From: a virus
IMG/VR virus record: IMGVR_UViG_3300042294_002782
Location: 1-41,212 of that record
DNA: 41,212 nt
Reading direction: 5' to 3' (one strand)
How positions within the stretch are numbered: position 1 is the stretch's first letter; the number at the start of each line of letters is the position of its first letter. Positions 15,636-39,469 of this stretch are shown one piece after another. The translations under genes were made by a program, and so were the position numbers. The notes beneath the pieces were generated by a model. The model did no database searches, was not told where the DNA came from, and worked only from the letters and a program-made list of their open reading frames with translations.

Positions 15636-16156
15636 GGTTCAAATCGGTTCAGTACACGGGCGACCCCGGCGACGACGAAGCCCGCTTCCTGCACGCAGCC
15701 AAGCATCAGCGCGCCTATTCCAAGTGGGAGCTGATGTTCGATTGGGACCCGTTCTTGGGCGTGCTGGAAGAATACCAGTACGACACCGACACCGGGCAGA
15801 TGACGATCAAGCGAACGCAGGATTGCTCTAGCGTGCTCGATGACAATGCCGAGTGGCGCCAGTCTGAGCAGACGTGGCGCAAGAAGGAAGACAAGTGGCT
15901 GCGCTACGCGTCGATCCCGATGCTGGTGGTCGAGCAGTGGATGAAGGAGGGCATCAACGTCCTCCTTGCCGAGACTGACCGCAACGGCGTGCCGAACGAA
16001 CACTTGAAGCGCGTGCTGAAGAAGCTGCGTGACCCCGATTGGCAGCACTTGAAGACCGTGGACATGGATATGGGCGACGGCTCCACCGAGGGCATGACGC
16101 GCATGATCCACGTTCCGGGCAATGGCCTGATCTGGCCGTGTAAGGACGATCTGTGA
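15632..16156 (+). CDS. Conserved-type phage protein near head genes (174 aa)
   Basis: Soluble alpha/beta protein. The stretch ASIPMLVVEQWMKEGINVL followed by LKRVLKKLRDPDWQHLKT is a pattern I associate with hypothetical proteins beside podovirus head genes, where the arrangement of a helix, NGVP and DPDW is typical. No catalytic motif. Coupled on both sides (ATGA before, GTGA after), the last gene before the glycan cassette. Confidence 0.6.
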   Translation: MRFKSVQYTGDPGDDEARFLHAAKHQRAYSKWELMFDWDPFLGVLEEYQYDTDTGQMTIKRTQDCSSVLDDNAEWRQSEQTWRKKEDKWLRYASIPMLVVEQWMKEGINVLLAETDRNGVPNEHLKRVLKKLRDPDWQHLKTVDMDMGDGSTEGMTRMIHVPGNGLIWPCKDDL

Positions 16157-17601
16157 CCGAGCTAAGCGCCTCCGAACTGACTGACGACAACGATCGCCTG
16201 CTACTGGAAGCCCAGCGCGCCGCTCAGCGTGAGAGCTGGGGCGAGGTCATGGCGTGCGCCGATGAGGTGCTGAAGAACGACCCGCTGCGCACTGAGGCGA
16301 TGTTCCTGTCTGCTCTGGCGCTACGCCGTGCGGGCAATGAAGGGACCGCGGCGCAGCTTCTGAGCTTGGCGACGAAGCTAGAGCCGAACCGCGCGCCGAT
16401 CTGGCTGAACCTTGCGATGTGCCTGCATGAGCGGCACCCGCTGGAAGCGTACCGCGCGGCCATGCGGGCGCAGATGATTGCGCCGGACACGCTGGACGGG
16501 CTCTCCATCCTCTGCAACATCGCCAGCACATGCGGGCGTCATGCCGAGGCGCTGGAATGGGCCGAGCGTTCGGAGCGCAAGTACGGGGTCCAGCCAGAGG
16601 TATGCCATAACAAGAGCTTCGCGCTCTTTGCGCTGGGGCGTTGGAAGGAAGCATGGCGCGAGTTCAAGCCGAGCTTGGGCCAGCCGGATCGCAAGATACG
16701 CAACTACCACGCCGGCAAGGAAACGCCGCGCTGGAACCCGAACAAGCATGAGAAGGCCGTGGTGGTGATCTACGGCGAACAGGGCATTGGCGATGAGGTC
16801 ATGTATGCGAGCATGATCCCGGCAGCGATCGAGGCGGCTCAGGCCAAGGGCTCTGGGGTTATCATCGAGTGTTATGAGCGCAACGCCGAACTGTTCCGGC
16901 GCTCTTTTCCAGACGCGACGGTGTACGGATCGCTGCGGGAGATGTACTCTGAGTGGCCGCGTGACGAGGGCGTTACGCATAAGCTGGAGATGGGCGGTCT
17001 TGGTGAGTTCTTTGCGCCGGAGCCATTTAAGCGCGACCGCTTCCTTGCCTGTGATGATGCTCGCTCTGCTGCGTGGCAAGCGTGGCTTTCGCGATCTGGT
17101 CGAGTGGGTTCACTGGCGCGCCCGCGTGTGGGCATTGCATGGACAGGCGGAAGCTGGGAAACCGGACGCGGCCGACGCTCCGTCCCGTTCGAGGACATCC
17201 TAGCGCTGATGCGCGGCCAGGACTGCACGTTTGTCAGCCTGGAATATGAAGACCGCCGCAAGGACCTAGAGTTCGCGCCCGATGTGCTGAACCCGTATTG
17301 GGCGACGCGCAAGGGCGCCGACATGGACGATCTGGCGGCGATCCTGACCAATCTAGATTTGGTCATCAGCGTGCAGACGAGCGTGGTGGACTATTGCGGC
17401 GCGCTCGGCGTGCCGTGCTGGGCGCTTGCCGATGCGGTCCCGCAATGGCGCTACACCGGATTTTTCGGTGAAGACACGATGGGCTTTTACGAGAGCGTGA
17501 AGGTCTATCGTCAGAAGCAATGGGGCGAATGGAAGCCTGTGATCCAGCAAGTCGCGCGCGATCTTAAGGCGCTGACCGACAGCAAGGCGGCGGCGGCATG
17601 A
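16153..17601 (+). CDS. TPR-domain glycosyltransferase, GT9-like (482 aa)
   Basis: Residues 10-170 form tetratricopeptide repeats (AQRAAQRESWGEVMACADEV, then PLRTEAMFLSALALRRAGNE, then APIWLNLAMCLHE). Residues about 190-470 are a GT-B type transferase like ADP-heptose:LPS heptosyltransferases: VVIYGEQGIGDEVMYASMIP near the start, VGIAWTGGSWETGRGRRSVP in the middle, and the donor-site end ILTNLDLVISVQTSVVDYCG with ALGVPCWAL. Combined TPR-GT9 proteins modify cell-surface glycans or protein glycans. Here it is the first of three coupled carbohydrate genes embedded in virion genes. GTG start in a GTGA overlap. Acceptor unknown. Confidence 0.8.
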   Translation: MTELSASELTDDNDRLLLEAQRAAQRESWGEVMACADEVLKNDPLRTEAMFLSALALRRAGNEGTAAQLLSLATKLEPNRAPIWLNLAMCLHERHPLEAYRAAMRAQMIAPDTLDGLSILCNIASTCGRHAEALEWAERSERKYGVQPEVCHNKSFALFALGRWKEAWREFKPSLGQPDRKIRNYHAGKETPRWNPNKHEKAVVVIYGEQGIGDEVMYASMIPAAIEAAQAKGSGVIIECYERNAELFRRSFPDATVYGSLREMYSEWPRDEGVTHKLEMGGLGEFFAPEPFKRDRFLACDDARSAAWQAWLSRSGRVGSLARPRVGIAWTGGSWETGRGRRSVPFEDILALMRGQDCTFVSLEYEDRRKDLEFAPDVLNPYWATRKGADMDDLAAILTNLDLVISVQTSVVDYCGALGVPCWALADAVPQWRYTGFFGEDTMGFYESVKVYRQKQWGEWKPVIQQVARDLKALTDSKAAAA

Positions 17602-35329: not shown

Positions 35330-36924
35330 TGATTTCCAAGCTAAAAGAGGCGGCGGCTTCCGCGCGCCTGAAAGCTGGCGTGTGGTGGCGTGAGCGCAAG
35401 GAGAAGCAAGAGGCGCAGAAGGCGCTGAACAGCGAGCACGGCCACGGACGCTTTTTCCTCCTCCATGTGCCGGCGCTGGCGACGATCTGCGCGGCTATCA
35501 CGGAATGGTACTGGGCGATCCTGTTCTGCATCGAGGCCACCGGCCGCGTTGATTGGAACTATGAGACGAGCTTCGGCAACACAGCCGCCGCCGCCTCGGT
35601 CTGGAACTTCGCTTTCTCCACGCACTGGCCCGTTTTCCTCGGCCTCGTCTGCGCGACCATCCCGATCGTCATGCTCTCGATGGTGTGGCTCCCGGTCCAG
35701 TTCGCCATGCGCGGCTCTGGCATGTGGCGGCGCGGCTCGGTCATCGTCGTGGGCGTGCTGGCGAACATCCTCGTCATCGTGTCCGGCACGGTGGTCATGA
35801 ACCACAACCGCCAAGATCAGGTGCGCGATGCGGTGGTGATCGAGCAGACCGCAGCGCAAGGACGGGCGGCGATCGACGCGCGGCTGGCGTTCGAGCAAGA
35901 GCAGCTTCGCCTCGCTCTGACCAACGCGAACCCGTATCTGAACCAAGCCGCCAGCGTCGGCGCGGAGGAGTGGGAGCGCTCGTATGTGGCACAAGCGCGC
36001 GCCACCAATGACCCGCGCCTTCCCCAGCTTGAACGCGCTCTAGGCGCGGCACGCGCTGCCGACGAGCGCAGGGCCAACATCGAGCGCCTGACCATCGAAC
36101 GCGCCACAGCGGCCCCGGAGGCCGCAAGCGCTGCCAACGTGACCGACACGGTAGGCCAAGAGCTAAACACGTTCGCGCAGTACGTGGAGGTCTGGCGCCC
36201 GCCGTTCATTGCCGTCATCTGCACGCTCATCGGCATCTTCGGCGCGTGGTGGGTGCTTGCGCTCATGCAGGGGCTTAACCCGCGTGACGTGATGCGCTCG
36301 GGCTGGGCCGACGAAGCGCACCGGATCGAGGATCTGCGCGATGAACCGTCTGTGGTCCCGCAGCCGATGAAGCCGCAGCGCGAGGCGATCTTTGACGGCG
36401 AGACGGGCGAGGAATTGGCGCCGGTCAATTACCCGAAGTTCCGCAAGAAGCCGCAGAAGGGCAAGCGCGTGAAAGCGGAGACGAAGCCGGACATCCCGCC
36501 CGACGAAACCGGCGTTGACCATGACGGCGGCGGGCGCGTGGGGTCAGTCGGGCCAGCGCCAGCGGACCAAGGCGCTGAGAGCGCGGCTGAGCAAGTAGCC
36601 CACGATGACAACAGCGATCAGCTCAGCGTTGCTGAGGCCAGTGTCGGCGTTGAGCCAGTCTATCCAGAAGTCGAACAACCCATCTCTCCTGATTACAGCG
36701 ACGAAGAGCTAGCCGCGATTGAGCGCGAGCTAGCGACGGCGACGGACGAGCCGGTCAACGATGCGGTTGAGCCAACTGCGGTGGTCGATAGCGATCCAGA
36801 GCCCGTAAGTGAGCAGCGCGAGAACGCCGAGCAGGACGAGAACGTCGCTCAAGACACACCCCCACGCGAAGAACCTGAACAAGACGAACGCCGCATGATC
36901 GCGGCAAACGTAGCAGCGGAGTAA
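35329..36924 (+). CDS. Four-helix membrane protein with periplasmic coiled coil and acidic tail (531 aa)
   Basis: TAATG overlap with the previous gene. Helices at about 43-70 (LLHVPALATICAAITEWYWA), 101-125 (VFLGLVCATIPIVMLSMVWL), 136-157 (SVIVVGVLANILVIVSGTVV) and 292-314 (PFIAVICTLIGIFGAWWVLA). Between the third and fourth lies a 130-residue charged coiled coil; after the fourth, a 210-residue tail that is basic to about 390 and then extremely acidic (runs of Asp/Glu with Val, Pro). No enzyme motif. Possibly a lysis-timing, secretion-like or exclusion protein; I cannot assign it. Confidence 0.65.
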   Translation: MISKLKEAAASARLKAGVWWRERKEKQEAQKALNSEHGHGRFFLLHVPALATICAAITEWYWAILFCIEATGRVDWNYETSFGNTAAAASVWNFAFSTHWPVFLGLVCATIPIVMLSMVWLPVQFAMRGSGMWRRGSVIVVGVLANILVIVSGTVVMNHNRQDQVRDAVVIEQTAAQGRAAIDARLAFEQEQLRLALTNANPYLNQAASVGAEEWERSYVAQARATNDPRLPQLERALGAARAADERRANIERLTIERATAAPEAASAANVTDTVGQELNTFAQYVEVWRPPFIAVICTLIGIFGAWWVLALMQGLNPRDVMRSGWADEAHRIEDLRDEPSVVPQPMKPQREAIFDGETGEELAPVNYPKFRKKPQKGKRVKAETKPDIPPDETGVDHDGGGRVGSVGPAPADQGAESAAEQVAHDDNSDQLSVAEASVGVEPVYPEVEQPISPDYSDEELAAIERELATATDEPVNDAVEPTAVVDSDPEPVSEQRENAEQDENVAQDTPPREEPEQDERRMIAANVAAE

Positions 36925-36930
36925 TAGCAC

Positions 36931-37059
36931 ATGGCATCCGTCTCCATCGACGCTAACTCAATCATCCCGTTCGCCCTACGCTGGACCTTCGCCGGCTTCT
37001 GGGCTTTCTTCGGCTGGAAGCTCGCGCAGATCGTTTACGCCGCTATCCCGTGGCCGTAG
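36931..37059 (+). CDS. Small membrane protein (42 aa)
   Basis: GGAG stands 9 nt before ATG 36931. One aromatic-rich transmembrane helix (LRWTFAGFWAFFGWKLAQIV). Last forward gene before the attachment region. The abundance of Trp and Phe at the membrane interface is notable; function unknown. Confidence 0.55.
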   Translation: MASVSIDANSIIPFALRWTFAGFWAFFGWKLAQIVYAAIPWP

Positions 37060-37075
37060 GGCTGCTTGCGCGGCT

Positions 37076-37103
37076 TTGCGTCTAGCGTTTTCATATTTAT
37101 CGT
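37076..37103 (+). promoter_or_regulatory. Candidate promoter reading into the tRNA half
   Basis: TTGCGT (37076-37081) and TATCGT (37098-37103) with a 16-bp spacer, in a patch that is less GC-rich than its surroundings (37085-37113). Transcription would start near 37110 and run into the tRNA-Ser sequence at 37153. No gene follows on this strand, which makes the tRNA the likely target after integration. Confidence 0.4.
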
Positions 37104-37152
37104 ATATCGGTATGGCGCTCATGGTCGAAACAATCCTGTTGTTTCAACGCTC

Positions 37153-37199
37153 GGAGAGATGGCGGAGCGGTCTATCGCAGCGGTCTTGAAAACCTCTGC
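37153..37199 (+). other. attP: 5' half of a tRNA-Ser(UGA) gene, probable attP core
   Basis: GGAGAGA acceptor strand (37153-37159), TG, D-arm stem GCG/CGC (37162-37164, 37176-37178), anticodon stem GCGGT/ACCTC with one mismatch (37180-37184, 37192-37196) and loop CTTGAAA with anticodon TGA (37187-37189). The T-arm and 3' acceptor strand are absent: no GGTTCGA-like sequence follows, and nothing pairs with GGAGAGA. The integrase gene is 620 bp away and points to this site. This fits a phage attachment core matching the 5' half of the host gene. From 37200 to 37345 I see nothing else of note. Confidence 0.7.
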
Positions 37200-37345
37200 G
37201 TATGCGTGAGCCACAAGGCGCGCGCTGTATATCGCGGGCCGGAATGAAGCTGTTTGCATCGTTACTCGGCCTGTTTGATGTATACGGCCTCGTCCCGACA
37301 AGTGTTCGTTTGCCGTCAATGGTGTAGGGGAAACGTGTACGACCA

Positions 37346-37789
37346 TCACGGCACCTCATCCGCTATTGCCTTGAGAGCGGCGATGAGAATGGCGAGGGGT
37401 GCTGTTGGCGCGCGTGACGTTTCGGGCGGGCCCACTTGCGTGCGCGGAAAGACCGCCGCCGTGAATGTGTCTCGCGTCTCAGGATTCGGCCCCGCCGTGC
37501 AGTAAACGCTCCACCACCACCCCGGCAGCACGCGCTCAACAAGCGCTAGGGCGGCGTCGAGAGAGGCGGTGTAGTTCGCTGGCGTGTATGAACGAACAAG
37601 TCCAGCAGCGCTCCAGCACTCCACTTGCCAATCATCGTGATGCGGACGGCGCGGCGGGCAAGCGCCGAGCTTGAAAGCTTTAGGCGGGTCGGGGATGTCG
37701 TAAAGTGCAGCGCATAGGCGCGCATCAATCTCACGATCCGGCCCTTCGGCTTTCTCCAGCCGTTCGATCAGCGCCTGCACCTCCATCAC
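37346..37789 (-). CDS. Hypothetical phage protein at the end of the leftward operon (147 aa)
   Basis: N-terminal helix VQALIERLEKAEGPDREIDA, then a middle with a tryptophan-rich region (DDWQVECW, LPGWWWSVYC) and the recurring block YTASLDAALALVERVLPGWW, which I associate with small proteins of prophages in Alphaproteobacteria. The end is a hydrophobic helix (PLAILIAALKAIADE). Last gene of the leftward operon, between the integrase and attP. No known function. Confidence 0.7.
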   Translation of the reverse strand: MMEVQALIERLEKAEGPDREIDARLCAALYDIPDPPKAFKLGACPPRRPHHDDWQVECWSAAGLVRSYTPANYTASLDAALALVERVLPGWWWSVYCTAGPNPETRDTFTAAVFPRTQVGPPETSRAPTAPLAILIAALKAIADEVP

Positions 37790-38882: not shown

Positions 38883-39060
38883 CGACTGCCTCCCTAACGG
38901 GTGCAGCGGGCGCCGATTCCGGGCTGAGTGTCACGTCCACGCAGGGAACGCCTTGATGGAACGAGACTTTATAGCCCGCGACCGGCAGGCCCATCTTGCG
39001 GGCGGGCTCCAGCGCTGCCTTGACGGCGCGCATGATGGTGGCCTGGGACCACTCAGCCAC
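38830..39060 (-). CDS. Small DNA-binding-like protein, possible excisionase-position gene (76 aa)
   Basis: I use GTG 39060 because the resulting start (AEWSQATIMRAVKAALEPAR) matches the usual beginning of this kind of small phage protein, SxxTxxRxxKAA; a TTG at 39075 is an alternative. The first half is a helix followed by GLPVAGYKVSFHQGVPCVDV, a beta-hairpin; the end is a basic helix. It sits just upstream of int, where excisionases lie, but I see no clear winged-helix or MerR-like motif. Confidence 0.6.
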   Translation of the reverse strand: MAEWSQATIMRAVKAALEPARKMGLPVAGYKVSFHQGVPCVDVTLSPESAPAAPVREAVDVQALKERIGRRHARRP

Positions 39061-39469
39061 GGCGCATCTTCTCAAGGCTAATCGGCGCCTTGTCGCTGAA
39101 CACCACGCCTTTCTCTGCGCCGAACGCCAGCGCCAGCTCGATCATGTCGCTCATCTCAGGGATTGTCATATCGCGCGTGCGCAGACCCACCGGCACGAAC
39201 GAGCCCGGATCAATGCCCGGAACCACGCGCACCTTTTGCAGCGACGCTGCGAACACGCGTTTCCAATCTTCGACGCAGAGCTTTTGGCCGTACCAGACGA
39301 CTTGCTCAGCAATCTCGTCAAGCAGGGCGTGCAGCTTGGCGTTCTGCTCCAGCGAACGCGTCGGCGGCTTGATCTCCACGACATAGCCCATCGGCGCGCT
39401 CTGGACGTGCTGCACGGCCATTGCGCGGGCTGTGGCGTGTTGGAGCCTGTAGAGGGCGCGGTCAGTCAT
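39053..39469 (-). CDS. ninB: NinB-family recombination protein (138 aa)
   Basis: NinB (Orf in lambda) binds single-stranded DNA and stimulates RecA loading, replacing RecFOR functions. The signature is clear: RSLEQNAKLHALLDEIAEQV (38-57), then LCVEDWKRVFAASLQK, RVVPGIDPGSFVPVGLRTRD and EMSDMIELALAFGAEKGVVF. Length is close to the family's usual 140 or so residues. Overlaps its upstream neighbour by ATGA. With the RecT-like protein it makes up the phage recombination set. Confidence 0.9.
   Translation of the reverse strand: MTDRALYRLQHATARAMAVQHVQSAPMGYVVEIKPPTRSLEQNAKLHALLDEIAEQVVWYGQKLCVEDWKRVFAASLQKVRVVPGIDPGSFVPVGLRTRDMTIPEMSDMIELALAFGAEKGVVFSDKAPISLEKMRRG

Follow-up and report, generated by a model that had tools for sequence, protein, structure and literature searches.

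A tRNA-Ser(UGA) 5' half at the probable attachment site of a temperate SU10-like podovirus

A temperate SU10-like podovirus very probably has its attachment site (attP) between the late genes and the integrase gene of IMG/VR record IMGVR_UViG_3300042294_002782. Its tyrosine integrase would recombine there with a tRNA-Ser(UGA) gene of the host, at the anticodon loop, and join a 5' half carried by the phage to the 3' half of the host. The window analysed here is the whole record of 41,212 bases, which is classed as linear, has 62.9% G+C and is without end repeats. The reading draws on features present in the sequence, namely a half tRNA, the point at which it ends, a dyad around the putative core and an integrase, together with a relative (G001) that has neither integrase nor half tRNA. 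Because the region lies past the integrase gene, because the tRNA identity ends within the dyad and because int and the half are jointly absent from G001, the region most likely represents an attP that includes a tRNA 5' half.

The tRNA half and the attachment core

The late genes of the phage are transcribed rightward and end with a gene for a 42-aa predicted protein, int, the NinB gene and others are directed leftward, and the tRNA half lies between both blocks (Table 1). The portal and capsid genes have their matches among SU10-like families, and the terminase is 44% identical to that of EBPR podovirus 2 and approximately 40% identical to those of Sulfitobacter, Bradyrhizobium, Rhizobium and Paracoccus phages. 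A TPR-repeat protein is encoded amid the structural genes (16153-17601).

Table 1. Features of the attachment region and its surroundings (window coordinates)
Feature	Position	Strand	Remarks
42-aa predicted protein	36931..37059	+	Final gene of rightward block; conserved in relative G001
A+T-rich stretch	37086..37120		60% A+T; where a promoter would have to lie
Second dyad	37124..37148		GTCGAAACA ATCCTGT TGTTTCAAC, 8/9 pairs, geometry as in att core
tRNA-Ser(UGA) 5' half	37153..37194	+	tRNA-derived part of putative attP; 42 nt, base 1 to position 41
attP core dyad	37176..37200		Predicted crossover region; CGCAGCGGT CTTGAAA ACCTCTGCG
Small ORF, 147 aa	37346..37789	-	No assigned function; between attP and int
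Tyrosine integrase, 353 aa	37821..38882	-	PF00589 E 1.7e-16; PHROG 1 integrase E 3.7e-32
NinB recombination gene	39053..39469	-	PF05772 E 5.3e-36; right neighbour of int block

The 5' half of tRNA-Ser(UGA) is real. It comprises the seven-base acceptor strand, the GCG/CGC D stem, the 5' strand of the anticodon stem, the loop CTTGAAA and a final ACC, the start of the 3' strand of the anticodon stem. Bacterial tRNA-Ser(UGA) genes for comparison were taken from 15 contigs of genome_contigs recovered with a shorter degenerate pattern, and all 15 were confirmed by ARAGORN. The best matches, in Rubellimicrobium (L022) and in a member of the Verrucomicrobiales (L020), reach 39/42, as compared with a maximum of 26/42 for the L022 query after dinucleotide shuffling of the window (40 replicates); a preliminary description had proposed a match from base 1 into the anticodon stem, and this is borne out. 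Independent support comes from blastn, which aligned the half with tRNA-Ser genes of phages, plasmids and E. coli. It falls below the reporting level of the Rfam tRNA model (E<=5 not reached). The single anticodon-stem mispair proposed earlier is likewise present (37181 x 37195).

A search of the 41,212 bases for a T arm with one mismatch allowed gave no match, and the 3' halves of nine tRNAs found no counterpart at the site, the best score elsewhere in the window being 28/48. Therefore only the 5' half is present, and a canonical 3'-half attP was rejected on the same grounds. ARAGORN found no complete tRNA gene in the window.

The tRNA identity extends three bases beyond the anticodon loop and stops there; this seven-nucleotide loop is centred in a dyad of nine-nucleotide arms with 8/9 pairs, four of them beyond the five-base-pair stem of the tRNA itself. 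Such a 9-7-9 geometry at 8/9 occurs at 12 of 41,187 window positions, two of which are at the attP region. The other is the second dyad, just upstream of the tRNA half and 52 bp upstream of the att core, for which a regulatory, Xis or leader role is conceivable. IHF-like sites near attP were found only as matches with two mismatches.

The integrase module and its relatives

Both components of a tyrosine-integrase element with a tRNA-gene attP are present, that is, an integrase (PF00589) and, near its gene, a fragment starting at tRNA base 1. Residues R221, K246, H309 and R312, which we take to be the catalytic positions, do not vary across an alignment that includes four phage integrases, which are 23-32% identical to the phage protein. 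The stop codon of int is located about 630 bp from the core, on the opposite strand, with one small ORF in between. Close relatives of the integrase were absent from viral_contigs and, at E<=1e-30, from 394 Rhodobacteraceae genomes; a search of eight genomes gave weak matches only, in four of them.

The relative G001 (terminase 72%) shares the NinB/ERF side and the side with the 42-aa and late genes, yet is without int. No tRNA-like sequence follows its 42-aa gene, and two other small genes occupy the place of int and attP (L036 1595-2240). Since G001 lacks both, int and the tRNA half seem to move as one module, and the locus resembles a place where relatives exchange genes; G001 may represent a different lineage instead of a simple loss. 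This synteny also bears on the notion of an assembly chimera between a host tRNA fragment and phage DNA. The junction is known from a single metagenome contig and recurs in no close relative, but the flanks on both sides are phage DNA syntenic with G001, the core dyad crosses the border between tRNA and non-tRNA sequence, and a fragment of this kind is what is expected next to an integrase; a chimera is thus very improbable.

Nine distant integrase relatives, chosen from 26 phage and 8 plasmid records, were examined for tRNA halves, with Rhizobium Y48 representing several near-identical records. Eight of the nine possess the 3' half of a tRNA gene, beginning at the anticodon stem and complete to the 3' end; these halves read towards int from the opposite strand. 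They are tRNA-Trp in EBPR podovirus 2 and Psul1, tRNA-Lys in TM3_3_14B and a Bradyrhizobium plasmid, tRNA-Thr in N3_2, tRNA-Pro in Pyei1 and tRNA-Gly in Mesorhizobium P1 and Rhizobium Y48. Isotypes were read by the analyst except for Trp and Pro, which are named in the records; a T-arm regular expression recognised six of the nine relatives, and both tRNA-Gly halves were identified by eye. No tRNA half was seen in Azospirillum Cd, and no 5' half was found in the nine with the few motifs used for 5' halves. The tRNA identity of the eight relatives begins at the anticodon stem-loop, the place where that of the phage ends. The phage site keeps the strand relation of these relatives to int but holds the opposite tRNA half, and judging from sequence it is a mirror arrangement in which a phage 5' half would be combined with a host 3' half. 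The preliminary description had set the phage apart from the common 3'-part arrangement, a contrast that the eight relatives reproduce. In Mesorhizobium phage vB_MseS-P1 (L002, L046), a tRNA-Gly 3' fragment is found at both ends of the circular record, and the deposited sequence probably retains both prophage att copies.

EBPR podovirus 2 (JF412295) illustrates this gene order. Like the phage it has NinB, int, one small gene and a tRNA fragment on the opposite strand; the fragment is annotated as a pseudo-tRNA past int and an endonuclease gene, the latter placed as the 147-aa ORF of the phage. Its integrase is about 29% identical to that of the phage. EBPR podovirus 2 differs in its 3' half of tRNA-Trp, with which the host promoter is kept, whereas the phage holds a 5' half.

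The position of the core also counts against the half tRNA being a leftover from an earlier attachment, or an accidental acquisition, in a phage whose integrase uses another site. Such a history would fit with the lack of an integrated copy and of close integrase relatives in viral_contigs or the 394 Rhodobacteraceae genomes. However, the D stem, the acceptor strand and the anticodon arm show no decay, the core sits at the attP position of the relatives and is centred in its dyad, and neither ARAGORN nor the T-arm search showed a further tRNA fragment in the window. A relic is accordingly quite unlikely.

The rebuilt tRNA and the upstream DNA

From these features we infer the integration itself, the position of the crossover, transcription driven by the phage and the function of the site. 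Crossover would take place in the anticodon loop of the host tRNA-Ser(UGA) gene. After integration, the late-gene end of the prophage would hold the phage 5' half fused to the 3' half of the host, and the host promoter with its 5' half would be displaced to the integrase end, reading towards int on the opposite strand. As the host promoter would stay with the displaced half, phage DNA would have to supply the promoter of the rebuilt gene, and transcription of the rebuilt tRNA, if needed, would come from the phage side, upstream of 37153. Such a need would be expected for a single-copy tRNA. The tRNA half most likely lets the phage insert and leave the host tRNA gene whole. When the phage half was joined in a script to three bacterial tRNA-Ser 3' parts, ARAGORN called tRNA-Ser(tga) in 3/3 cases, and acceptor pairing was complete only with the E. 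coli part. The mispaired stem base had been thought to alter the rebuilt tRNA slightly, which does not hold for a crossover in the loop: position 37195 lies outside the loop and would go to the other junction, and the host would supply the 3' strand of the stem, so the mispair would be absent from the rebuilt tRNA.

A sigma-70-like promoter upstream of the half had also been proposed. A standard promoter scan of 36850-37400 returned no site. With an approximate scoring matrix, the proposed pair TTGCGT-16-TATCGT (37076-37103) ranks second best in 37060-37152, and the best score in this interval was equalled by 740 of 1000 base shuffles, which leaves the proposal without support. The A+T content of 37086-37120 is reached by 0.35% of 35-nt windows; this richness suits a promoter and equally an attP arm. 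Capture of a host promoter was considered by comparing 37060-37152 with the leaders of 14 bacterial tRNA-Ser genes and was rejected as not convincing after 14 tests. Only the leader of Tabrizicola aquatica (L019) stood out, being matched as well in 2 of 300 shuffles and 5 of 400 random windows; leader L026 (7/300 and 31/400, respectively) aligned elsewhere. The earlier proposal that the prophage both completes the tRNA and drives its transcription thus stands in part: the phage would supply the front of the rebuilt gene, as a mirror of eight of the nine relatives, but the specific promoter is not retained.

The upstream DNA is also relevant to an RNA-level role, in which the phage would express the 5' half as a tRNA fragment acting as a decoy for an anticodon-cleaving defence or as a regulatory RNA. 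The anticodon stem-loop and D arm are kept and a hairpin-forming dyad lies just upstream, as such an RNA might require. Folding of 37108-37200 is nevertheless no better than that of shuffles (z -0.93), no promoter rises above chance, and it would be left unexplained why the half is linked to int and stops exactly at the anticodon, all of which makes this role extremely improbable.

Any 5'-half element that keeps the tRNA working must bring along the DNA upstream of its half, and control of a serine tRNA in lysogens, as suggested earlier, is speculation. It is unlikely, in our estimate, that an anticodon-loop integrase of this lineage switched from the 3' to the 5' half with the effect that an essential serine tRNA of the lysogen is transcribed solely from phage DNA, possibly under regulation through the 37124-37148 dyad, which lies between the A+T-rich stretch and the tRNA. 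Were this so, the switch would tie host UCA decoding to the state of the prophage.

Known systems and the search for a host

A tRNA 5' half as attP belongs to an uncommon but already known minority class. In the Islander report (PMC4383910), 3760 of 3919 islands carry 3' and 159 carry 5' tRNA-gene fragments, in agreement with the earlier statement that most tRNA-targeting elements carry the 3' part. As in the Islander 5' class, the phage holds the 5' part of its target tRNA gene; Islander also counts an anticodon-centred site as one of two site classes, to which the phage site corresponds. Islander comprises mapped integrated islands, whereas the phage is known here from a free attP alone.

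According to an archaeal review, pTN3-like integrases (PMC8371274, PMC5495485) use the 5' half, the rebuilt tRNA being expressed from the integrase promoter; the review adds, citing Williams 2002, that 5'-half use is rarely encountered in bacteria. The pTN3-like attP is likewise a tRNA 5' half (41 bp shared, tRNA-Leu), and in both systems the rebuilt gene is, or in the phage would be, parted from its original promoter. The pTN3-like enzyme is, in contrast, an archaeal suicidal integrase whose gene holds attP and is split, whereas the attP of the phage is intergenic and int stays whole. In tRNA-dependent lysogeny (PMC10865867), an interrupted host tRNA must also be made good, but in that mode the core, of about 10 bp, restores no part of the gene and the phage brings a whole tRNA; here 42 bp are shared and no whole tRNA is present. 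This mode was rejected for the phage on the basis of the 42-nt identity extending past the anticodon loop and of the absence of ARAGORN tRNA genes from the window, a contig that may be incomplete.

No other bacterial phage with a 5' half was evident from titles and abstract openings in a partial body of literature in which the term 5' cannot be searched. The phage is a clear bacterial-virus case of a 5' half, set against 3'-half relatives with the same strand relation, and the comparison could show how one integrase lineage changes the tRNA half that it carries. A lysogen, if found, would provide a direct test of whether the promoter of an essential tRNA can belong to a prophage; apart from that, the attP represents ordinary integration biology.

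The exact 42-mer occurs neither in viral_contigs nor in genome_contigs (84,980 species genomes), and allowing three mismatches retrieved it from 0/385 Alphaproteobacteria and 0/398 Pseudomonadota genomes sampled. A relaxed tRNA pattern had no match in viral_contigs, and no lysogen, attB, attL or attR was found in viral_contigs, genome_contigs or the sampled genomes. The 15 contigs of the comparison set include some titled Rhodobacter, Tabrizicola (3), Rubellimicrobium, Xinfangfangia and Fuscovulum, all of them Rhodobacteraceae. GGAGAGA, the acceptor strand of the phage, would not pair fully with CTCCTCC of the well-matching Rhodobacteraceae genes; the host is therefore probably none of those, and is probably a species beyond the genomes searched. 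Relatives of the major capsid protein (37-44%) are encoded in 8 of the 385 Alphaproteobacteria genomes (L054-L061), which likely contain prophages of the SU10-like phage type.
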